Shown here in pieces: positions 7,126-31,010 of a stretch of DNA of 64,000 nucleotides (position 1 is the stretch's first letter; every line of letters starts with the position of its first letter). The position numbers and the translations under genes are program-made. The DNA is from Micromonospora sp. DSM 45708. Lineage in GTDB: Bacteria; Actinomycetota; Actinomycetes; Mycobacteriales; Micromonosporaceae. The stretch lies in the NCBI RefSeq assembly GCF_039566955.1, contig NZ_CP154796.1:1798001-1862000 (forward strand). Direction: 5' to 3'. The notes beneath the pieces are model-generated. The model saw only the letters and a program-made list of their open reading frames with translations, did not search any database and was not told where the DNA came from.

Positions 7126-8360
7126 GGCCGGATCGCCCAGAACGGCCCGTCCGTCGACATCATTGGGCTCAGGCCGGGCCGCTCGTGGGGCGGGTGATCA
7201 TGATGGATCATGAGGTGGATGTCGCCGACGATCGTGCGACGCTCCATCGCATAAGAGTGACCCATGAGACCGGTCTCGACCCGGCTCGCGTCGATGGTGT
7301 CAATTCCGTCGAGCACAACGAGGCCGATACCGCCGCGGCCCGCCCGAGGAGCGTTCGCGAGCGCGCGCGATCCGGAGGCGGCCATGGCCAGGTCACTGTC
7401 GTTGACGTACAGGGTGAACCGCTCGGCAGTGCCCGAGAAGTCGGCGACCCGGTCCCGGAACTGCTCCGCGTCGAGGTCCGGTGCGGCGAACACCACATGC
7501 CCCAGTTTGTAGCCGGCCAGTCTGCTGAGCGCCTCGGTGAGGATGCGGTTGCCCATACTGTGCGCGATGACGTGCACCCGACCACCCTCGGTGGACTCCA
7601 TGAGAGAGGTGAGGAACGCGCGGAAACGGCGCTGCGTGCCATCGGCGGCCGCGCCGTCGGCGACGTAGGCTGCGGGCGAGCCCGCGGATGGCCAGCTGTA
7701 GAGGACCGGTACGCCGCCGAAGTCCAGGTCGTAGGCGAGCTGCGCGGTACGCCGGACGGCATTGACGAACGATACGTTGTAGCCGTGCACGAAGATCAGC
7801 ACGTCACGGCCTGGTGCCCGGTCACGCATCCGGGCAACGGTGGCGGTGAGGCTCTTCGACTCCTCCATGCGTAAGCCCGTGTCTTCCGGCTTGCGGAACT
7901 TGAGGCGCCATCGCCGCTTCGGCCGGGGCAGCTTGCCCGTCCGATGGTCATCGGGAAGCGCGACCCACGCCCTGCCATATCGCAGCGTGCGGTCGCGGCC
8001 CGCGCCATAGACCTCCGCCGGCTCGTCGGTGGGTACGCGGTCGGTGGCGTATGCGATCTCGACCTCGCTGCGCCGCTCCGTCAGGGCCAGCGACTGTGGA
8101 GTTTCCACGCCGCGCCCTGGGCCGAGCATCGCCGCCAGGATCGCCGACTCGACGCGGCGGTGCAGATCGGGCGCCTCGCTCAGCACGGCGAGGATGCGAT
8201 TCTGCGCGCTCTCGACCTGGTCCGGGCTGGCGGCGTCCAACTCCCGCAAGGCGTCGATCAGAGCGGGCTCGATCGCGGCGGCCTCGGGCCCCGGCTCCTC
8301 TGGCCACACCGCACCGACGGCGTCGACCAAAACGCGTGACTCGTTCATCACATCGAGCAT
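7122..8360 (-). CDS. DUF900-family alpha/beta hydrolase
   Basis: A 412-residue serine hydrolase of the DUF900 (PF05990) type, probably an esterase or lipase. The oxyanion strand is VLIFVHGYNVSF (about 187-198), the nucleophile elbow is VIAHSMGN with Ser268, the acid is likely in FAAPDLDAEQF (near D295), and the histidine is in MGHSYAMER (H368). About 170 residues precede the hydrolase fold and are of unknown role; no signal peptide or membrane segment is seen, so it should be cytoplasmic. It lies on the same strand as, and 303 bp downstream of, the TPR-CHAT gene. A hairpin in the gap may separate the transcripts. Hydrolases of this fold serve as effectors in several anti-phage systems; a CHAT-activated role is inference. 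An in-frame ATG at 8348 is an alternative start. Confidence 0.88.
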   Translation of the reverse strand: MLDVMNESRVLVDAVGAVWPEEPGPEAAAIEPALIDALRELDAASPDQVESAQNRILAVLSEAPDLHRRVESAILAAMLGPGRGVETPQSLALTERRSEVEIAYATDRVPTDEPAEVYGAGRDRTLRYGRAWVALPDDHRTGKLPRPKRRWRLKFRKPEDTGLRMEESKSLTATVARMRDRAPGRDVLIFVHGYNVSFVNAVRRTAQLAYDLDFGGVPVLYSWPSAGSPAAYVADGAAADGTQRRFRAFLTSLMESTEGGRVHVIAHSMGNRILTEALSRLAGYKLGHVVFAAPDLDAEQFRDRVADFSGTAERFTLYVNDSDLAMAASGSRALANAPRAGRGGIGLVVLDGIDTIDASRVETGLMGHSYAMERRTIVGDIHLMIHHDHPPHERPGLSPMMSTDGPFWAIRP

Positions 8361-19874: not shown

Positions 19875-22800
19875 ATGAGAACTGCCAGAGCTGGTCGGCC
19901 GCACCGCAATCGCGGGCGAACGCCGGCCGTCAACACCATGGGGAGCGTTGCCCGACGCGCCCTCACCGTCGGTCTGGTCGCGCTGCTCGCCGCCGCGGTC
20001 GGCGGGCAGATTCCCGCCCAGGCGCAGCGCCCGGCCGGGGCTCCCCACCTTGAGCCGCAGCGGTATCCGTCCGCCCCGCTGCATGAAGTCAAGCGGACCA
20101 AGCCGACCACGGACGCCGGCGCCGCGCAGGTGAAGCGGCCCGCGCCGGTGTGGCCGAGCGCGTCTGCCGCCGAGGTGGCGTTGCCGGCGACCGCCGCTGG
20201 CGAACGATCGACGAAGGTCGCCGCCCGGGCCGGCACCCTTCCGGTGACGGTCCGGCCCGCCACCGGTCCGTCGACGGCTCGTTCGGCCGCATCCACTCCC
20301 GGCAAGGTGCGGGTGGAGGTGCTGTCGCGCACGGAGACCGCTGCGGCCGGGGTGAACGGGTTGCTTCTGCGGGTGGGTCGCTCGGACGGAACCCGCTCCG
20401 CCGGGCAGGTCGAGATCGGCGTCGACTACGCCGCCTTCGCCACCGCGTACGGTGCGGACTGGTCGTCGCGGCTGCGGCTTGAGCGGCTGCCCGAGTGCGC
20501 GCTGACCGCCCCCTCGACCAGGGACTGCGGGCCGGTCGCGTTGGGCTCGCGCAACAACGTCCGTACCCGGACGGTCTCGGCGACCATTTCGGCGGCCCCG
20601 GTGAGCCGGGCATTGTCACCGGCGGAGGCCAAGCGGCTCGGCGTCGCTCCAGCCGCCGCCAGTGCGGGGACACTTGTCGCCCTGACCAGCGGTCCGTCCG
20701 GCGGGGCGGGTAGTTTCACCGCGTCCAGCCTCAGCCCGTCCTCTTCGTGGGGCCACAGCGGTGCCACGGGTAGTTTCCAGTGGTCCTACCCGATGCGCAC
20801 GCCGCCTGGGCCGGGTGGGCCGTCGCCCTCCCTCACCGTCGGCTACTCGTCCCAGTCCGTGGATGGCCGGCATGCTGCGTCCAACAACCAGCCGGGCGCT
20901 TTCGGTGAGGGCTTCGACTATTCTCCCGGCTTCATCGAACGCCGTTACAAGGCATGCTCCGACGACATGGGCGGCAACGCCAACAACACGGTCAAGACCG
21001 GTGACCTGTGTTGGGGGCCGGACAACGCCGTGATGTCGCTCAACGGCAGTTCGGTCGAACTGCTCAAGGGCAGTGACGGCAATTGGCATCCGCGCAACGA
21101 GGACGGCTCGAAGATCGAGTTGGCCACCACGCCCGCCTACAGCAACGGCGACGACAACAACGAGTACTGGAAGGTCACGACCACCGACGGCACGCAGTAC
21201 TGGTTCGGCCGCCACCAGTTGCCGGGATGGTCGTCCGGGAAGCCCACGACGAACTCGGTGCTCACCGTCCCCGTGTACGGCAACAACCCGGGTGAGCCCT
21301 GCAACGCCGACACGTTCGCCGCCTCCGACTGCAACGGCAAGCGGCAGGCCTGGCGCTGGAACCTGGACTACGTCCAGGACATCCACGGCAACACCATGTC
21401 CTACTGGTGGGCCAAGGAGACCAACTACTACGCCAAGAACAAGGTCACCTCGACTCCGGTCGTCTACGACCGGGCTGGCTACCTGACCCGCATCGACTAC
21501 GGCAGCGACAACCGGGACAACAATGAGTACGCCGCCTCCTCGCCGTACGTCGAGAACGTCCCGGTCCGCATCGACCTGACGAACATCGACCGCTGCCTGG
21601 CCAACTGCACCACGAAGAACGACACCACCTGGCCGGACACCCCTTGGGACCAGGAGTGTCTCTCCTCCACCAAGCCCTGCCTCAACGGGTCGCCCACGTT
21701 CTGGTCGGCCAAGCGGACCACCGAGGTCCTGACCAAGGTGTGGAAGAGCAACGCGTACCAGAACGTCGACTCCTGGACGTTCCGGCAGTCCTTCCCGGAC
21801 CCGGGTGACGGAACCCGCGCCGGCCTGTGGCTGGAGGGCATCACGCACAAGGGCCTTAACGGCGGCACGGTCACCGCGCCGGAGGTGACCTTCGAACGAG
21901 TCCAAATGCAGAACCGGGTCGACGCGGCGGGCAGCGACTGGGCGCTCGCCATGAACTGGCACCGGGTCAAGCAGATCAACCTGGAGACCGGCGGCAAGAT
22001 CTTCGTCACCTACAGCGACCCGGAGTGCGTCAAGGACAGCAAGATGCCCTCGAAGAGCGCGCTGGACAGCAACACGCTGCTCTGCTATCCGGTCAAGTGG
22101 ACGCCACCCGGTTACACCGACAAGGTCACCGACTTCTTCCACAAGTACGTGGTGAAGGAGGTGCAACAGATCGACGAGGTCGGCGGAGCAAGGCCGGTGC
22201 GCACCGCCTACGACTATCTCAACGACAACGACGAACCGCTGTGGCACTACGAGGACGACACCGGCATCACCCCGGACGACACCCGTACCTGGTCGCAGTG
22301 GCGGGGATACCCGACGGTCGTCACCTACCTCGGTGAGGGCGTCGACCGCACCAAGACCGAGACCCTGTACTTCCGCGGCATGTACGGCGACAAGCTCGCC
22401 TCGGGCGGCACCCGCACCACCAAGGTGCAGGGCAGGGAGGGTGGTCCGGCCAACGACTACGAGCACTTCGCGGGCAGCCCTCGGGAGACCATCACCTGGC
22501 TCGGATCCACGGTCCTCGCCGCCACTGTCAACGACATGTGGCGCTCCGACCCACCGACCGCCACGCGTTCCGGCACACCGGTCGCGGAGGCCCGGTACGC
22601 CCGGATCGGCGCAACGCACGCCCGCGGGGCAACCGACGGCGGTGTCCGGCGGACCACGACCACCACCAGCTATGACGAATTCGGCATGCCGACCGACGTC
22701 GAGGACGGCGGAGACGACAGCAAGACCGGCGACGAAGCATGCGTGAAGACCGAGTACGGCCGTAACGCCACGAAGTGGTTGCTCGACCCGGTGCGGCGGA

Positions 22801-25800
22801 CGCACGGCTGGGTGGGCGGGTGCGGCACCACTCCCACCGCGGAGAACCAAATCACCGCGGACACCCGCTTCAGCTTCGACTCGCAGGCTTACGGTGCGGC
22901 GCCGACCAGCGGTCTGGCGACCGCGGTGGAGACGATCACGGGCTTCAGCGGCGGAACCCGGACGTACAAGAAGGTGTCATCGGCCACCTACGACGCCTAC
23001 GGGCGGGTCGACGCGAGCTTCGACATCGCCGGGGAGAAGACCGACACGGACTACGTGCCGGCATCCGGCGGGCCGGTCACGCAGGTCATCACCACGAACC
23101 CGCTGTTGTGGAAGAGCACCGTCAATCTCGACCCCGCCTTCGGTGTGCCGGTGAAGACCACCGACCCCAACAACCGGGTGACTGAGATCACCTACGATGC
23201 CATGGGTCGCACCACCGCGGTCTGGCTGCCCAACCGTGACCGCGCCATCTACGGGTCGGCACCCTCGAACAGCTACAGCTACACCCTGTCCAAGTCGCAG
23301 CCCTCGTTCATCACCACCAAGGCGTTGAACGCCGGCGGCGGCACCGACACCTCCTACCTTCTTCTCGACGGTCTGGGCCGCCCCCGGCAGGCACAGGAGT
23401 CGGCGTACGGCAGCGGCCGGATCCTGTCCGACACCTTCTACGACGCCGCCGGTCGTATCTACAAGGAGAACGCGGCCTACTTCGACGCCGGCGCCATCGA
23501 CACCACCATCATCAAGTTCCGCGACGACAAGGACGTGCCCAGCCAGACCAAGACCCTCTACGACACGGCCGGCCGCCCGATCCACTCACTCCTGCTCGGC
23601 ACCAACGCCGGCGTGCAGGTGGAGAAGGCCCGGACCTCCACGACCTACCACGGCGATCACACCACCGTGACGCCGCCGACGGGTGACGCGGCCACCACGG
23701 TGTGGACGGACCTGTACGGCCGGACCGAGAAGCTCTGGCAGTACCACGGTCCCACCGCGACCGGGACCTACGACGAAACCAGCTACACGTACCACCCGGT
23801 GGGGCAGCTGGCGACCGTCAAGGACCCGTCCGGCAACACCTGGTCCTACTCCTACGACATCCAGGGCCGGCCCACTTCCACCACCGACCCGGACACCGGC
23901 ACGTCGACCAGCAAGTACAACGACCTGGGCGAGCTGGAGCGGACCACCGACGCCCGCCCGGACACCCCGGACGTCTGGTACACCTACGACCGGATGGGGC
24001 GGCTGGCGACCACGCGCGAGGGCAGCCTGACCGGCCCGAAGCGGACGGAGTTCACCTACGACTCGCCGATCAAGGGCGCGACGAAGTCCGCTTCGCGCTG
24101 GATCGGCATCGAGGAGTACCGCAGCGAACTGGTGTCGGTGGACAAGATGGACCGACCCACCCAGACCAAGCTGACACTGCCCTCCTCGCAGGCCGGCTTC
24201 TGTGGCATCGGCGCGGTCACCTGCACCTTCACCTCGAAGGCCAGCTTCCTCGCCGACGGGTCACCCAACACCCTCACCATTCCGGCGGCCGGCGGGCTCA
24301 GCGAGGAGGTCCTCAACTACCAGTACGACAGCACGTACGCGCTGCTGGACAAGCTCGCCACCAACTACGGTGACGCCAGCTACTACGCGATCGAGTCCAA
24401 GTACACGAACCTGCACGAACTCAGCCTCATCACCCGGTCCACCCAGTTGACGGGCACCAAGTCTGTCCAGACGAAGAACACCTTCGACGCGGCTACCGGC
24501 CGTGTCAGCAGCGGCACCGTCCAGCGTTCGACCGCTCCGGTGCCCGTGTCGAACACCTCATACGAATACGACGCCAGCGGCAATGTCCTGAAGGTCGACG
24601 ACAACTCCGGTGCCCGCCCCCGCGACACCCAGTGCTTCGCCTACGACCACCAACGCCGACTGACCGAGGCTTGGACCCCGGCCTCCTACGACTGCGGCGC
24701 GAAGCCGCAGAACGAGTCGGAGTTGGGTGGCCCGGCACCGTACTGGCAGCAGTGGTCGTTCGGCGCTCCGGACGACCCGCAGGGGCGCGTCGGCAACCGC
24801 CTGACCCAGATCGAGCGCGGCACGCCGACCGGCACGGTCACCACCTCCTACTCCTACCCGGCGGCCAAAGCGGCGCAGCCGCACCGACTCGACGGTTGGA
24901 GCAGGACCGACAACACCGGCACGACCACCGGCTCATACACCTATGACGAAGTCGGCAACATGAAGACCCGCCCCGGAAAATCGGGGCAACAGACCATGAG
25001 CTGGGACGTCGAGGGACGCCTGGCCTCGGTGACGGACAGCGCCGGAACCAACTCCTACATCTACGACGCCGGCGGCAACCGGCTCATCGCCACCGACCCC
25101 ACCGGCAGCACGCTGTTCCTCGGCGACCAGGAGGTGCGCAAGAACGGCACCAACGGCCAGGTGAGCGCCACCCGGTACTACGGTTTCAACGGCGAGGTCA
25201 TCGCCCAGCGCACCGTCACGGGCATCACCTGGTTGGCCAGCGACCACCAGGGAACCTCCCAGGTCAGCATCGCCAACGACACCAACCAGACCATCACCCA
25301 ACGCCGCCAGACGCCCTACGGCGCCCCGCGCGGCGCCGCGGTCACCTGGCCGAACCAACAGGGATTCCTCAGCGGCTACCAGGACCCCACAGGTCTGACG
25401 CACCTGGGCGCCCGGGAGTACGACCCGTCCATCGGGCGGTTCATCTCCGCCGACCCGATCAACGACATCGGCAACCCGCAGCAGATGCAGGCGTACGCCT
25501 ACGCCTCCAACAATCCCACCACCTACGCCGACCCCAGCGGCGAGATCATCCCCGAGTACGCGGGGATCGACACACCCAAGGGCCTCTGCCCGCGCACTAT
25601 CGACGGATACGCCTGCCAGGACGTTGTCGAGAAGTACAAGCCACAGTCGACCCGTCGTGACCCCGGGCTGTTCAACAACAAGGTGTTGCACGATGCGGCG
25701 GGGGTGGTGTCCTGGGTGCCGGTCCTCGGCTCGGGAGCCGACGCTGCCGATGCCGCCCTCTATCTCCACGAAGGCGACACGAAGTCGGCCGTCGTCACGA

Positions 25801-26873
25801 TGGCTCCAGGACCGCCGGTCTGCAAGTTCGTGAAACGGGCCTGCAAGTGGGTCAGTGAACAGCTCGGCAGGAAGGCGGAGAAGAAGGCCGCCAAAATCTT
25901 GAGCAAGGAGGCGTTGGAACGCCTCACCCCCAAGATCAACCCGCGTCAGGAGATGGCCGAGATGGCCATGCTCAAGGCCGAGGCGCGGGCCAAGGATCTC
26001 GCAAAGGTCAAGCCGAAGGCACCACCCGCTCCCGCGAAGAAACCGGACCCGGGCACGAAGGGCAAGCCCGCAACCAAGAACACCGACGCGCCGCCGGAGA
26101 AGTCGTGCAAGCACAGCTTCGCCCCCGACACCCCCGTTCTCATGGCCGACGGGGAGAGCAAACCAATCGCCGAGGTCGCCGAAGGCGAGGAGGTCCTCGC
26201 CTATGATCCGGCGACGGGTACCACCAGCGCGGAACCCGTCGACGCCGTCCACATCAACGAGGACGAGGCGCTGACCGATCTCTCGGTCCGAGACGGTGAG
26301 GGCAAGTTCGTCACCCTGCACACCACGCAACACCACCCCTTCTGGAGCGAGAGCCGCGACCGGTGGGTCGAGGCGGCCGATCTCCAACCGACGGAGGAGT
26401 TGTTGTCGCCGGACGGGGTCGCCGTCACGGTGGCGAAGGTCGACAACTTCAACGGGCAGCGAACGATGCACGACCTCACTGTCCGTCGCGTCCACACGTA
26501 CTATGTGATGGCCGGACGCGCGCCTGTTCTTGTGCACAACTGTGACGTGATGCCGGTGCGCGATTTAGCCAAAAGTGACATGTCCCACCCGCTGCGTGAT
26601 GACAAGCTGATCCAGATAGAGGCACTGGACGACTCTGCCCTGTTGAGGGCTGTCAACACCCCCAGTGATGGGACTGCCGTACTGATCACTAAATCCAGAG
26701 ACCTGCTGATGGATGGGCATCACCGCGTCGCGGAGTTGGTGCGCCGGGCTGGTGCTCCGGATAGTACAATTACATGGGATACTCGTGTGCGTGTTGACGT
26801 ATTTGAGCGCGACTTACGCCGCTTCCCCTTCGAGCGGCGGCAGTCGATCGGTAGCCTATTCCCAGAGGAGTAG
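19875..26873 (+). CDS. RHS-repeat polymorphic toxin with Hint domain and ParB-like tip
   Basis: A 2332-residue secreted RHS protein. It begins with a long signal peptide (hydrophobic core RALTVGLVALLAAAVGG). YD/RHS repeats (such as YTYDEVGNMKTR and SYIYDAGGNRL) fill most of the chain and end at about residue 1870 with the RHS core signature LGAREYDPSIGRFISADPI. A hydrophobic and lysine-rich linker follows, then a Hint (intein-like autoprocessing) domain at about 2076-2224, from HSFAPDTPVLMADGESKP to the terminal PVLVHNC. The last 108 residues are the variable toxin. They contain LLMDGHHRVAELVRRAG, which matches the ParB/Srx-like nuclease motif; toxins of this fold (Tox-ParBL1) are known in polymorphic toxin systems. 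The Hint domain should release the tip, and the RHS shell should encapsulate it. AAGGGA precedes the ATG. The gene is followed after 2 bp by the immunity candidate. Confidence 0.9.
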   Translation: MRTARAGRPHRNRGRTPAVNTMGSVARRALTVGLVALLAAAVGGQIPAQAQRPAGAPHLEPQRYPSAPLHEVKRTKPTTDAGAAQVKRPAPVWPSASAAEVALPATAAGERSTKVAARAGTLPVTVRPATGPSTARSAASTPGKVRVEVLSRTETAAAGVNGLLLRVGRSDGTRSAGQVEIGVDYAAFATAYGADWSSRLRLERLPECALTAPSTRDCGPVALGSRNNVRTRTVSATISAAPVSRALSPAEAKRLGVAPAAASAGTLVALTSGPSGGAGSFTASSLSPSSSWGHSGATGSFQWSYPMRTPPGPGGPSPSLTVGYSSQSVDGRHAASNNQPGAFGEGFDYSPGFIERRYKACSDDMGGNANNTVKTGDLCWGPDNAVMSLNGSSVELLKGSDGNWHPRNEDGSKIELATTPAYSNGDDNNEYWKVTTTDGTQYWFGRHQLPGWSSGKPTTNSVLTVPVYGNNPGEPCNADTFAASDCNGKRQAWRWNLDYVQDIHGNTMSYWWAKETNYYAKNKVTSTPVVYDRAGYLTRIDYGSDNRDNNEYAASSPYVENVPVRIDLTNIDRCLANCTTKNDTTWPDTPWDQECLSSTKPCLNGSPTFWSAKRTTEVLTKVWKSNAYQNVDSWTFRQSFPDPGDGTRAGLWLEGITHKGLNGGTVTAPEVTFERVQMQNRVDAAGSDWALAMNWHRVKQINLETGGKIFVTYSDPECVKDSKMPSKSALDSNTLLCYPVKWTPPGYTDKVTDFFHKYVVKEVQQIDEVGGARPVRTAYDYLNDNDEPLWHYEDDTGITPDDTRTWSQWRGYPTVVTYLGEGVDRTKTETLYFRGMYGDKLASGGTRTTKVQGREGGPANDYEHFAGSPRETITWLGSTVLAATVNDMWRSDPPTATRSGTPVAEARYARIGATHARGATDGGVRRTTTTTSYDEFGMPTDVEDGGDDSKTGDEACVKTEYGRNATKWLLDPVRRTHGWVGGCGTTPTAENQITADTRFSFDSQAYGAAPTSGLATAVETITGFSGGTRTYKKVSSATYDAYGRVDASFDIAGEKTDTDYVPASGGPVTQVITTNPLLWKSTVNLDPAFGVPVKTTDPNNRVTEITYDAMGRTTAVWLPNRDRAIYGSAPSNSYSYTLSKSQPSFITTKALNAGGGTDTSYLLLDGLGRPRQAQESAYGSGRILSDTFYDAAGRIYKENAAYFDAGAIDTTIIKFRDDKDVPSQTKTLYDTAGRPIHSLLLGTNAGVQVEKARTSTTYHGDHTTVTPPTGDAATTVWTDLYGRTEKLWQYHGPTATGTYDETSYTYHPVGQLATVKDPSGNTWSYSYDIQGRPTSTTDPDTGTSTSKYNDLGELERTTDARPDTPDVWYTYDRMGRLATTREGSLTGPKRTEFTYDSPIKGATKSASRWIGIEEYRSELVSVDKMDRPTQTKLTLPSSQAGFCGIGAVTCTFTSKASFLADGSPNTLTIPAAGGLSEEVLNYQYDSTYALLDKLATNYGDASYYAIESKYTNLHELSLITRSTQLTGTKSVQTKNTFDAATGRVSSGTVQRSTAPVPVSNTSYEYDASGNVLKVDDNSGARPRDTQCFAYDHQRRLTEAWTPASYDCGAKPQNESELGGPAPYWQQWSFGAPDDPQGRVGNRLTQIERGTPTGTVTTSYSYPAAKAAQPHRLDGWSRTDNTGTTTGSYTYDEVGNMKTRPGKSGQQTMSWDVEGRLASVTDSAGTNSYIYDAGGNRLIATDPTGSTLFLGDQEVRKNGTNGQVSATRYYGFNGEVIAQRTVTGITWLASDHQGTSQVSIANDTNQTITQRRQTPYGAPRGAAVTWPNQQGFLSGYQDPTGLTHLGAREYDPSIGRFISADPINDIGNPQQMQAYAYASNNPTTYADPSGEIIPEYAGIDTPKGLCPRTIDGYACQDVVEKYKPQSTRRDPGLFNNKVLHDAAGVVSWVPVLGSGADAADAALYLHEGDTKSAVVTMAPGPPVCKFVKRACKWVSEQLGRKAEKKAAKILSKEALERLTPKINPRQEMAEMAMLKAEARAKDLAKVKPKAPPAPAKKPDPGTKGKPATKNTDAPPEKSCKHSFAPDTPVLMADGESKPIAEVAEGEEVLAYDPATGTTSAEPVDAVHINEDEALTDLSVRDGEGKFVTLHTTQHHPFWSESRDRWVEAADLQPTEELLSPDGVAVTVAKVDNFNGQRTMHDLTVRRVHTYYVMAGRAPVLVHNCDVMPVRDLAKSDMSHPLRDDKLIQIEALDDSALLRAVNTPSDGTAVLITKSRDLLMDGHHRVAELVRRAGAPDSTITWDTRVRVDVFERDLRRFPFERRQSIGSLFPEE

Positions 26874-27546: not shown

Positions 27547-27636
27547 ATGAAGTGGCGCGGACTTGCTGCAGCCAGGAAAGGCGCAATAGCCGTTGGCGCC
27601 CTGTGTGTAGGGGTGTCGCTGGCCGGTTTTCGTTGA
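27547..27636 (+). other. 29-residue signal-peptide-like ORF
   Basis: It starts MKWRGLAAARKGAIAVGALC and ends VGVSLAGFR, then stops. A basic N-region followed by an Ala/Gly/Val-rich core is what an actinobacterial signal peptide looks like. The upstream sequence has no good ribosome site. It is either the stump of a secreted-protein gene cut by rearrangement or chance. The rest of 27303-27546 shows no gene. Confidence 0.25.
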
Positions 27637-27644
27637 TGCTCGCG

Positions 27645-27711
27645 CGGTGGGGCGGTGTTTAGTGTTTGAATTCAGTCCGGTGGTCGGACCAAGCTTGTTC
27701 GGCTGTCGGAC
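27645..27711. repeat. 67-bp repeat, copy A (3' end of the winged-helix gene)
   Basis: Same-orientation match to 30011-30077 with about 7 differences (roughly 90% identity). It covers the last codons of the winged-helix gene, including the WSDHRT.FKH-type ending, plus the flank beyond its stop codon. Confidence 0.85.
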
Positions 27712-28048
27712 TAGCGCTGGTTCTGTGGTCGGACCAGTCGGCGGCTGTGATGGAATTCGCAGTCGATAGGTTGGCCTTGGCTTTCTTGCTTCGGGCTTCG
27801 TCCACTTTTGGTCTGTGGCGCACGACCCAGCCCAGCTCTTCGAGTTCGTTGAGCCAGACGGCGATGGTGGAGCGGGCCATGCCTGTTGCCCGTTCCAGGT
27901 CTGTCAGGCTGAGGGAGAACTGCGCAGGGATTACTGCGGTTGAGTGATCCGACCATGTCAAGAGTGTGAGGATGAGGTGGCGTCCGGAAGGGCCGAGGGG
28001 ACACTCAGCATCTCGAACTGCGCGTTCTATTGCCCATCGCTCTGCCAT
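27659..28048 (-). CDS. Winged-helix DNA-binding protein
   Basis: A 129-residue protein. Residues 20-80 read as a winged helix: SGRHLILTLLTWSDHSTAVI, then LSLTDLERATGMARSTIAVW and LNELEELGWVVRHRPKVDE. This resembles the HTH_36/GntR-like domains of plasmid and integrative-element replication or control proteins in actinobacteria. The C-terminal tail repeats a short peptide (DWSDHRTSASP, then AWSDHRTEFKH). The IS5 element sits only 60 bp upstream of its start, so its native promoter may be displaced. No partner gene remains; it may be an orphan of a lost integrative element. Confidence 0.65.
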   Translation of the reverse strand: MAERWAIERAVRDAECPLGPSGRHLILTLLTWSDHSTAVIPAQFSLSLTDLERATGMARSTIAVWLNELEELGWVVRHRPKVDEARSKKAKANLSTANSITAADWSDHRTSASPTAEQAWSDHRTEFKH

Positions 28049-28108
28049 GCGTACGCCCTCCCGTCGCCACGCGCTGTCGTGGAAGCTCTGGTGTCATCCG
28101 GCACCTAA

Positions 28109-29056
28109 GAGGGCATCTGATCTCGGTTGGCGAGGTTGGTCCGATTAGGTGGTTTCGTTTCGCCAGGTTGGGGTGGATTCTCCGGTGAGGTAGCGGCTCA
28201 TTGTGTTAGCCATGGCCCAGTGGATCATCGTCCGGGTGCGGTGCGGGAGGGTCTCGTAGTCGCGGACGAGTCGTCGATGCTGCATGAGCCAGCCGAAGGT
28301 TCGTTCCACGACCCACCGGCGTGGCTGGACGTGGAAGCCCTTGCCTGCCGGGCGGGGTACCACCTCGACGTCGATGCCCAGCCGGGCGCCGTGCGCCCGG
28401 ACCGCGGTGTTGGAGCCGCCGTCGACCCACGCCTTGACCACGGTCGGATGGTCGGCCGAAACGGTGTCGAGCAGATGCCGGCCGCCGGCGGAGTCCTGGA
28501 CCGACGCGGCGGTGACGATCACCGCCAGAAGCAGACCGAGGGTGTCGGTGGCGATGTGCCGCTTGCGTCCCTTGATCTTCTTCGCGGCGTCAATGCCTTG
28601 GCTGGACTCAGCGATGTTGCTGGAGGTCTTCACGCTCTGCGAGTCCAGGACCACCGCCGTCGGGCTCCCTCGACGTCCTCGCGCGACTCGGACGCGTTCC
28701 CGCAGCAGGTCGTGGATGCGCTGGGTGGTCCCGTCCGCCTCCCACTTGGCGTAGTAGTCGTACACCGTTTTCGCCGGCGGAAGGTCATGCGGCAGGTACT
28801 CCCACGCGATCCCCGTCCTGGCCACGTAGAGGATCGCGTTGACGATCTCCCGCAGGTCATGCGCCGGCCTGCTGATCCCCAACCCCACCCGCGCTGCCCG
28901 CCACGCGGTCAGGACTGGCTCGATCAACGCCCACCGCTCATCCGACAAGTCCGACCGATACCCACGCCGCTGCACACCCACGCCGCAATCAACGACCCAC
29001 AGCGGCCCACGCCACGACCGAACGTGAAATAACCGCTACACGGATCAGATGCCCTC
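28109..29056 (-). mobile_element. Complete IS5-family insertion sequence (948 bp)
   Basis: Perfect 14-bp inverted repeats, GAGGGCATCTGATC at 28109-28122 and its complement at 29043-29056, flanked by the direct repeat TAA (28106-28108 and 29057-29059). One transposase gene on the minus strand fills it. It appears intact. Confidence 0.92.
28145..28981 (-). CDS. IS5-family transposase
   Basis: A 278-residue DDE transposase of the single-ORF IS5 type. The N-terminal DUF4096-like domain reads LSDERWALIEPVLTAW and WEYLPHDLPPAKTVYDYYAKW. The catalytic residues are in VVLDSQSVKTS (D113), KAWVDGGSN (D187) and the C-terminal RRWVVERTFGWLMQHRRLVR (E in VERTFGW). The spacing and the end of the protein are normal for the family, so it is probably functional. 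Confidence 0.95.
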   Translation of the reverse strand: MGVQRRGYRSDLSDERWALIEPVLTAWRAARVGLGISRPAHDLREIVNAILYVARTGIAWEYLPHDLPPAKTVYDYYAKWEADGTTQRIHDLLRERVRVARGRRGSPTAVVLDSQSVKTSSNIAESSQGIDAAKKIKGRKRHIATDTLGLLLAVIVTAASVQDSAGGRHLLDTVSADHPTVVKAWVDGGSNTAVRAHGARLGIDVEVVPRPAGKGFHVQPRRWVVERTFGWLMQHRRLVRDYETLPHRTRTMIHWAMANTMSRYLTGESTPTWRNETT

Positions 29057-29114
29057 TAAGCCCCGTGACGGTAGAAGCGCGTGGGTCTGCTGCACCGATA
29101 GGCGACAGTTTCAG

Positions 29115-29525
29115 TCAGGCGGCCTGACTGGCCGGTCGGGTCATGATGGTCTCGTACTCGATAGGGGTCAACCGGGACAGGGATCGTTGGCGTCGGCGGC
29201 GGTGGTAGGTCCGTTCGATCCAGGTCACGATCGCGGCCCTCAGTTGCTGCCGGGTCGTCCAGGTCCGGCGGTCGAGGACGTTGTTCTGCAGCAGGCCGAA
29301 GAACGACTCCATGGCGGCGTTGTCGCCGGCGGCGCCGACTCTGCCCATCGACCCGATCATGTGGTGCTGGTTGAGGGCACGGACGAACTTCCGGCTGCGA
29401 AATTGCGACCCGCGGTCGGTGTGCAGCACGCAGCCGGCCACGTCACCACGACGGGCTACAGCGTTGTGCAGGGCGTTGACCGCCAGCCTCGACTTCATCC
29501 GCGAGTCGATGGAGTACTGGCTGGC
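29115..29525 (-). pseudogene. IS3-family OrfB remnant (C-terminal part)
   Basis: The last 135 or so residues of an IS3 OrfB: GYSID-type start (YSIDSRMKSRLAVNALHNAV), second aspartate in CVLHTDRGSQFRSRKF, glutamate in NAAMESFFGLLQNNVLDRR, and the usual ending RRQRSLSRLTPIEYETIM. The N-terminal half, including the first catalytic aspartate and all of OrfA, is missing; the homology breaks near 29525. It belongs to a different IS3 group from the copy at 4.9-6.2 kb. It is inactive. Confidence 0.85.
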
Positions 29526-30010
29526 CCATGGCAGAGCCGTCAAATGACGGCCGCGCCCGAGAACGCAGAGGCCGACGTGTGGTCGGGCATGAGACGCTCT
29601 CGGGGGCTGAACATAGCAATTCTTGAAGCCGGATTCTGTCCATCATGGCGCGATGACGATCTGCGTAATCGGCGTCGTTTCGCGTGGGGTTACGGTATCG
29701 ATCACCCCACCGACACGAACCCTCGTCCCTACGGTAGGCGGGTCGCGTTGCGCGACTGCGATGTAGTGGGCCTGTGATCGCACGATCGGCGTCAGCATCA
29801 GCGCTTGGCAGGAATTTGTTGCTGGGAAGTCAGTACTGTCTACGTCAGCAGATCGTGGGCAGGACGTCGTCCCAGGCTGTCAGCTCGGCGATGAGCTCCT
29901 AAGCGGCACTGAGCGCCGGCAGGAGCAGTTCGCCCGCCTCACCATCGAGGACGGGACGGTCGAGCGCGGCGCGATAAGCGCGGGACAACTCGGCGCGGTG
30001 AATCCTCGGG
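29526..30010. other. Gene-free stretch between the IS3 remnant and the CRISPR relic
   Basis: About 485 bp. A short minus-strand open stretch near 29900-30003 (ELSRAYRAALDRPVLDGEAG) may be the tail of a lost gene. Nothing else is recognisable. Confidence 0.5.
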
Positions 30011-30077
30011 CGGTGGGGCGATGTTTGGTGTTTGAATCCGGTCCGGTGGTCGGACCAGGTTTGTCCGGCTGTCGGAC
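30011..30077. repeat. 67-bp repeat, copy B, abutting the CRISPR relic
   Basis: About 90% identical to 27645-27711. Its last base (30077) is immediately followed by the first CRISPR repeat (30078), so the duplicated segment and the CRISPR sequence were joined at this point. Confidence 0.85.
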
Positions 30078-30339
30078 GGATCACCCTACGTGCCGCGGGG
30101 AGCAGCCCGAGGTCATCGTGTTCGACAACCTGATGGACGGATCACCCCCGCGGCGCGGGGAGTAGCTCGGGTACAGTCCGGAAAGATCTTGGCTTAGAGG
30201 ATCACCCCCCGCGTGCGCGGGGAGCAGCAAGGAGTGGGCCCGCTGGACCTGCTCCCCGCGCACCGGGGGGGTGATCCCGTCGCCGCGGCGCCGGCGATGC
30301 CGAGGGCGATCTGCTCCCCGCGCACGCGGGGGTGATACC
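30078..30339. CRISPR. Degenerate type I-E-like CRISPR relic, repeats in both orientations
   Basis: Five repeats of the GGATCACCCCCGCGTGCGCG + GGGAGCAG type. Three are forward: 30078-30105, 30139-30165 (27 nt, one base short) and 30199-30227. Two are reverse-complemented: 30249-30277 and 30311-30339. Spacers are exactly 33 nt at 30106-30138, 30166-30198 and 30278-30310; the piece between the opposing repeats (30228-30248) is only 21 nt. Repeat 1 is the most diverged (CCCTACGTGCCG in the middle). After the last repeat another spacer-length piece follows, but no further repeat. No cas gene or leader is in the window. The repeat form and 33-nt spacers match type I-E arrays of actinobacteria. Confidence 0.88.
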
Positions 30340-30411
30340 CCGGCTGATCCCGGTCTCGGCCCTTGCCAAGGCCCGTCACCCGGACGTTCCCGCCGAGTTC
30401 GCGCAGGCCGC

Positions 30412-31010
30412 GGCGCGTCGTGGGCGTTGGCCGCGCTGGCACTGCTCCTCGCGGCCGTCGTCCTCGGCCGCGGGACGCTGCCATGGTGGGCAACCGCTGG
30501 TGCGGTGATCAGCCCGCTGGCCGCCACGGCGCTGCTTGGGGCGTACCCGATGATGTCGGTGGTGATCTGCGCGGCCACCAGCCTGGCCGCGGGCCTGGCG
30601 ATCCGCGAGTCGGTACCGGTGTGGAGCGCCGCGCTCGGCGCGGCGCTGTTCGTGATCAGCCTGCTGGCCGGGCACCGCGCCCCGCGTCCGATGCCCGCGC
30701 TGGCCGTGCTCGGCGTCGCCGCACTGCTGGACGTTGCCTACGGCCTGGCGGCGGGTGGGGGGCCGGTCTGCTCATGCTCGCCCTGGTCGTCGCCCTGCCG
30801 TGGGCGCTCGGGCGCATCCTGCGCCAGCAGAACCAGCTCGTGGTGCTCAGCGCCGAGCAGGCCCGGCTTCAAGAGCGCGCGCATCGCCCACGACATGCAC
30901 GACACGCTCGGGCACGAGCTCAGCCTGCTCGCGCTGCGCGCCGCGGCCCTGGAGATGGCGCCCGAACTGGACGATCGGCACCGGGCCGTGATGCTCAAAC
31001 CAAGGCATCG
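30412..31010 (+). pseudogene. NarL/DesK-type sensor histidine kinase, frameshifted and truncated
   Basis: A membrane sensor part reads LAALALLLAAVVLG, TAGAVISPLAATALLGAYPM and MSVVICAATSLAAGLAIRES. Near 30760 the frame shifts to GLLMLALVVALPWALGRIL and QQNQLVVLSAEQARLQER, then near 30880 it shifts again to the dimerisation/phosphoacceptor helix ARIAHDMHDTLGHELSLLAL (HisKA_3, His in the AHDMHD motif). The sequence ends near VMLKP, so the ATP-binding domain is absent. No partner response regulator is present. With two frameshifts and a missing catalytic domain it is dead. Confidence 0.8.

Follow-up and report, generated by a model that had tools for sequence, protein, structure and literature searches.

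The cluster of CRISPR repeats lying head to head in the genome of Micromonospora sp. DSM 45708 is probably the remnant of a collapsed type I-E locus, in which two outward-transcribed arrays flanked the cas operon. It lies in a 64,000-nt stretch of contig NZ_CP154796.1 (positions 1,798,001 to 1,862,000), which is called the window throughout and to which positions refer unless another genome is named.

Results

Type I-E-Like Repeats Change Orientation at a 21-nt Junction

Five I-E-like repeats were located at 30078-30339, R1 to R3 in one orientation and R4 and R5 in the opposite one; on the plus strand R1-R3 read GGATCACCC...GGGGAGCAG, and R4-R5 are the reverse complement of this (Table 1). The first-pass annotation had described three forward and two reverse I-E-like repeats with 33-nt spacers and a 21-nt junction, and all of them were found at their places. 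The repeats fit the type I-E form of 28-29 nt with a CCCCGC..GCGGGG core and differ by one to four edits from the consensus of the repeats found beside type I-E cas genes of the genus. The three complete spacers are all different and exactly 33 nt each, as are 1003 of the 1051 spacers counted in relatives.

Table 1. Features of the relic and of its flanks; for repeats and spacers the strand is the presumed crRNA-sense strand.
Feature	Position	Strand	Description
Left flank	30002-30077	-	Copy of the 3′ end of a helix-turn-helix (HTH) gene, 76 nt, 88% identical to window 27636-27711
R1	30078-30105	-	4 edits from the consensus of relatives, most degenerate; trailer end of left array piece
Spacer 1	30106-30138	-	33 nt; target in phage DnaB-like helicase gene
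R2	30139-30165	-	2 edits from the consensus of relatives
Spacer 2	30166-30198	-	33 nt; no target found
R3	30199-30227	-	1 edit from the consensus of relatives; leader-proximal end of left array piece
Junction	30228-30248		21 nt, meeting point of the two array pieces
R4	30249-30277	+	2 edits from the consensus of relatives; leader-proximal end of right array piece
Spacer 3	30278-30310	+	33 nt, G+C-rich; weak matches only
R5	30311-30338 (or 30339)	+	1 edit from the consensus, as 28 or 29 nt; trailer end of right array piece
Right flank	30338-30990	+	3′ end of a CubicO-type serine hydrolase gene, then 5′ part of a sensor kinase gene

The crRNA-sense strand of type I-E repeats reads CTGCTCCCC...GTGATCC, so that R1-R3 would be transcribed leftward and R4-R5 rightward, with the leader ends facing each other and the trailers pointing outward. 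This assignment agrees with the leader positions in the arrays of relatives. The presence of three forward and two reverse repeats, where a type I-E array has a single repeat orientation, indicates two array pieces and not one array. The earlier proposal of a head-to-head joining of two array pieces was borne out. Its premise of a constant direction in normal arrays is correct for a single array, but opposed arrays do lie side by side in one relative (G006). The 21-nt junction presumably represents the remains of one or two cut spacers; it had no exact match in viral contigs. R3 and R4 together form an inverted repeat with 29-nt arms, 93% complementary, around the 21-nt loop.

In order to separate the array from chance, the consensus of relatives was aligned to the window. 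The five best places were R1-R5, with scores of 52, 50, 45, 43 and 32, and the best score in any of 40 dinucleotide shuffles of the window was 30. R1 alone, at 32, is barely above an unrelated peak of 31 at 25566 and was accepted because of its spacing and of spacer 1, not on score alone. When a model built from the five repeats was run against the 7.0 Mb genome, the next match had only an E-value of 0.38 (scored for 150 of the 9116 first-look candidates). With up to three mismatches allowed, 33 of the 101 genomes searched contain this repeat, the present one among them and many with tens of copies. By sequence, some of the single matches among the 33 are not arrays; a reversed control pattern gave no match in the same 101-genome table. 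A known structured RNA was rejected, as the window had no Rfam match.

A Spacer Matches Streptomyces Phages Next to an AAG PAM

Spacer 1 is identical over 33 of 33 nt, exactly the width of the spacer, to DnaB-like helicase genes of Streptomyces phages in at least 11 phage records (E-value 3e-7 in the combined search, 8e-9 when searched alone); in the records where taxonomy was read, it was Arquatrovirinae. AA lies directly upstream of the protospacer and, with its first base G, gives an AAG PAM in all five exact-match records read; these are phage Janus plus four viral contigs, of which one has the length of Janus. Phage Joe, with one mismatch to spacer 1, also has AA upstream; in a Propionibacterium phage, which differs at four positions, AT stands there. 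The type I-E system of Streptomyces avermitilis is reported to use an AAG PAM (PMC4762764). The PAM lies on the side that agrees with leftward transcription of R1-R3. This exact phage match, flanked by AAG where the PAM is expected, establishes the cluster as a genuine CRISPR array relic, not a product of chance.

The search of spacers against phages and plasmids, which the first-pass annotation had called for, was less informative beyond spacer 1. Spacer 2 had no convincing match in phages or plasmids, and two sub-patterns of it were absent from viral contigs; in the crRNA sense it starts with T, as do 87 of the 1051 spacers of relatives. Spacer 3 had a best phage match of 26/27 nt (E-value 6e-4), amid many partial G+C-rich matches, and plasmid matches with E-values of 6e-3 at best. 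The combined array search of plasmids gave matches that were attributed mostly to the repeats of other arrays and to chance similarity of G+C-rich sequence. Against the fetched loci, all 33 cas loci included, the spacers gave short partial matches, the phage loci and one spacer of the relative G024 excepted. An orphan array directed against cas genes was rejected, because in these loci no spacer matched a cas gene beyond such short stretches. The G024 spacer lies beside cas3 (L067, 13953-13985), is by reading 29/33 identical to spacer 1 and adjoins a repeat that shares the CACCCT variant of R1; the two may reflect a helicase target taken twice or a distant common origin.

Cas1, Cas7e and a Leader Were Not Found

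The first-pass annotation had noted the absence of cas genes, and this could be extended from the window to the genome for the two Cas families searched: neither Cas1 nor Cas7e was found in 7.0 Mb. Within the window, tblastn with I-E Cas proteins gave a single match, to 42 aa of Cas7 at 8053-8178 (E-value 0.002), which was set aside as chance. The first-pass annotation had asked for the main array and cas operon of the genome as a comparison; no other such repeats were found in it.

The leader motif CAGGTCANNAAG, defined on the arrays of relatives described below, was absent from the window and the genome at up to three mismatches, and no leader was found at either end of the relic. It was not seen within two mismatches beside R3 or R4, and a leader remnant in the junction was rejected: the best 12-nt motif match at most 45 nt away has three mismatches for R3 and four for R4. 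With genuine repeats and spacers and no matching cas genes, the object is an orphan relic. It is most likely without function, given that no leader, Cas1 or Cas7e was found and that its repeats are mutated. In such a state it can acquire no spacers, most likely serves no effector complex and is decaying; it might still be transcribed by chance and used by Cas proteins of other families.

Divergent Array Pairs Flank the cas Genes in Most Two-Array Loci of the Genus

Of 160 genomes of the genus, 31 contained Cas7e, with 33 places in total, and 129 did not. Arrays on both sides of cas were detected in 24 of the 33 I-E loci fetched; among the nine others (G185, G163, G049, G193, G151, the second locus of G139, G116, G141 and G037) some stretches are cut off by a contig end or by the fetch limit. 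When the nearest array on either side of cas was considered, 18 of the 24 loci had the order forward-cas-reverse, with arrays diverging outward and leaders facing cas. The remaining six ran in the same direction (three forward-forward, three reverse-reverse), and the convergent order reverse-forward did not occur. The leader motif, at up to two mismatches, stood at the assigned leader end of 46 of the 48 arrays and at the trailer end of none; the two arrays lacking it at the leader end were the right one of G109 and the left one of the second locus of G168. In the 18 divergent loci the inner array ends, between which the cas genes lie, are separated by 9.0-16.3 kb. No relative among the loci fetched had the spacers of the relic on the two sides of a cas operon.

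Most actinomycete I-E systems are described as having two arrays transcribed in opposite directions (PMC4762764), whereas a broad survey reports that I-E array pairs have almost exclusively one orientation (PMC12814883). The genus studied here follows the former statement, contrary to the general one of the latter.

A separate configuration was seen in G006 (L059, 9842-10525), where two I-E arrays lie tail to tail. About six reverse repeats are followed by five forward ones, and each outer side carries leader-like sequence; this is the opposite of the arrangement in the window.

The Relic Abuts Truncated Genes on Both Sides

Both outer ends of the relic directly abut other genes, as trailer ends would. 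The HTH gene whose 3′ end recurs in the left flank lies at 27659-28048, and the copy is cut exactly at the start of R1. The homologous stretches of G139 and G017 run on past the point where the array starts here. On the right, the CubicO-type and sensor kinase genes are truncated and have internal losses. Compared with G051 (L079), this flank aligns over 64 nt at 89% and over 581 nt at 92% identity; in G051 both genes are open, their proteins belong to PF00144 and HisKA_3/HATPase_c by Pfam, and no repeat was found there. The 16 nt from 30338 onward are identical to the CubicO-type gene of G051 and co-linear with the next aligned stretch, and none of 200,000 random 16-mers of the window matched that gene. 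Decay of the outer repeats followed the earlier expectation for R1, which had been called most decayed as befits a trailer end; R5, the other trailer end, has a single edit.

At none of the 33 cas loci of the genus were the genes that flank the relic found nearby, and no intact locus at this site turned up among relatives, which are represented by one genome per species. The relatives matching the right flank, at best 77% identical (G110), have neither an array nor a trace of the CubicO-type gene at the site.

To the left of the relic lie an IS4/5-type transposase gene (28145-28981) and, at 29115-29543, a fragment of a transposase integrase core. A rearrangement linked to insertion sequences might have brought together array fragments from two separate places. 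This reading, which we hold to be unlikely, would fit the nearby transposase genes, the flanks made of truncated genes of different origin and the many scattered arrays of several relatives, G006 among them. Yet the junction consists of 21 nt and carries no transposase end, all five repeats are of one repeat type, and random joining is expected to produce the orientation that collapse of a cas locus gives in only part of the cases.

As an observation apart, the region 27659-30077, with the HTH gene, the transposase gene, the integrase-core fragment and the duplicated HTH 3′ end, has the make-up of a scrap region of mobile DNA. Further left, 19875-26873 holds an ORF of 2332 aa, RHS/YD-repeat-like, whose C-terminal stretch appears Hint-like by eye.

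A Second Head-to-Head Relic Is Joined Through a Chimeric Repeat

A comparable, independent relic was found in G011, a genome of the genus that lacks Cas7e as well, at G011:C32:729855-729977, and no Cas protein match was obtained in the 12 kb around it. It consists of a forward remnant, 33 nt, a chimeric repeat, 32 nt and a reverse repeat. The chimeric repeat, GGATCACCCCGCGTGCGCGGGGATGATCC, has a left half in forward and a right half in reverse orientation. The left remnant is weak (score 22), so that it is the chimera, the reverse repeat and the spacing which support the case of G011. Like the relic of the window it is head to head; unlike it, it is joined via one chimeric repeat instead of via a cut spacer. 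Such a chimera is as expected if two arrays recombined through their shared palindromic core. Inversion through two cores would also give a chimera, but with a reciprocal second one, and none was seen in G011.

The chimeric-repeat pattern occurred in seven of the 160 genus genomes, with an array at the site in G011 only. In the other six, five genomes had no alignment peak of at least 26 and one had a single peak of 26. These six matches without an array indicate that palindromes with such ends arise by chance. A search of the same 160 genomes for the head-to-head-type pattern gave three matches, with a fused array in the present genome only; the two others were rejected, as G163 proved to have a spacer inside a one-way array and G166 a site without repeats. 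Across 84,980 genomes the head-to-head pattern, which admitted a single repeat sequence without mismatch and a single gap range, returned two stretches, neither of them a fused array; the scan may omit the record of the present genome and misses array pairs that are farther apart or of other repeat types. The stretch of Streptomyces beijiangensis was rejected as a hairpin, and that of Kitasatospora griseola as a spacer containing an inverted half repeat. This last spacer (NZ_BMRI01000041.1, L104, about 7397-7428) sits in a one-way I-E array, as if array DNA had been captured. Among the side observations is also a decayed relic of one orientation in G023 (L015, 880-1020), which has three degenerate forward repeats at 60 and 50 nt spacing in a genome without Cas7e.

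Discussion

That the two-array layout once stood at this place and was lost by one fusing deletion is what we infer from the layout found in relatives and from the features of the relic. In the ancestral locus, the cas operon would have lain between two outward-transcribed arrays, each with a leader at its cas-facing end. A deletion from the leader-proximal spacers of one array to those of the other would have removed both leaders together with the cas genes and fused the array stumps head to head, with the 21-nt junction representing the remains of the cut spacer or spacers. Since the forward-then-reverse order is already present around cas in 18 of the 24 loci, one deletion would be enough; made between two inner spacers, it would result in full repeats on both sides, facing leader ends, no leader and a junction shorter than a spacer. 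Several findings count against this reading, namely the six of 24 two-array loci that are not divergent, the missing intact locus at the site together with flanks that lie beside none of the 33 cas loci, the hardly decayed R5 (one edit at a trailer end), spacer 2 with its T start in the crRNA sense and no target, and the one-orientation statement for I-E pairs in PMC12814883.

The first-pass annotation had instead proposed joining by inversion, or an inverted array end. In this scenario the leader end of a single array would have been inverted and then trimmed; forward and then reverse repeats would likewise follow, the palindromic repeat cores could recombine in inverted orientation, and opposed arrays do exist in the genus (G006). 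We regard it as improbable and not as the best reading of the locus, where one deletion is enough. After R5 the rest of the cut spacer would be expected, and the CubicO-gene sequence stands directly there instead. A 21-nt junction would need an extra deletion, and no leader motif within three mismatches was left anywhere in the genome. Inversion through the cores should also leave chimeric repeats, and R3 and R4 are not chimeric. An inverted duplication of one array was rejected, because the spacers on the two sides differ.

Hairpin-forming inverted repeats are a known kind of trouble for assemblers, and R3 and R4, a 29-nt inverted repeat around a 21-nt loop, could be such a mis-assembled hairpin. 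We give this artefact very little probability, as the genome is a single contig, the spacers on the two sides differ and a comparable relic exists in G011. It is hardly conceivable that the repeats are a palindromic element unrelated to CRISPR, strongly palindromic as they are and in spite of the chance palindromes with the same ends in six of the seven chimera-pattern genomes, given their 33-nt periodicity, their identity to real I-E repeats and the phage protospacer of spacer 1, exact and with its PAM, which already refutes it.

The relic has its nearest intact counterpart in S. avermitilis (PMC4762764). The two-array I-E system of this species shares with the relic the CCCCGC..GCGGGG core architecture and the AAG PAM, with one array downstream in cas direction and one upstream transcribed the other way. 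It has an intact, active cas operon and leaders, whereas the relic consists of five fused repeats for which no leader, Cas1 or Cas7e was found. The degraded and cas-less loci of Escherichia and Salmonella resemble the relic in having cas deleted and few relic repeats left; the portion of that paper available (PMC2886076) makes no mention of oppositely oriented fused stumps, in which the relic differs. Orphan I-F arrays of E. coli are, like the relic, small arrays left after cas loss, but their spacers match cas genes (PMC8616872), whereas spacer 1 of the window matches phage. The minimal CRISPRs of CreTA, too, have very few degenerate CRISPR repeats; CreA, however, is described as Cas-dependent and as having two flanking repeats (PMC8501985), and no Cas7e was found in the present genome.

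As an object, the relic is an orphan CRISPR relic, and its head-to-head fusion together with the chimera of G011 is a variant for which no description was found: among the literature matches listed, mostly non-subscription, none was recognised that describes head-to-head or inverted arrays after cas loss.

More tentatively, divergent I-E arrays might provide a ready-made means of excising the cas operon that they flank, although we consider this possibility rather doubtful at present. Owing to the palindromic core, opposed forward and reverse repeats would share a core in direct orientation, and recombination between them would remove both leaders and all cas genes and leave a head-to-head stump; the join would be a chimeric repeat in the case of G011 and would lie within spacers in that of the window. 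Repeated excision, if true, would help to explain the absence of Cas7e in 129 of 160 genomes, and its scars would be recognisable.

Loss of a cas operon usually goes unseen, as the whole locus vanishes. The head-to-head relic is a recognisable scar, and scars of this kind can be counted and placed on a phylogenetic tree. If such scars have other causes, the relic is a curiosity, a small inert orphan array. If most of them derive from deletion between divergent arrays, the loss of cas genes in actinomycetes would follow predictably from the way the arrays are laid out.
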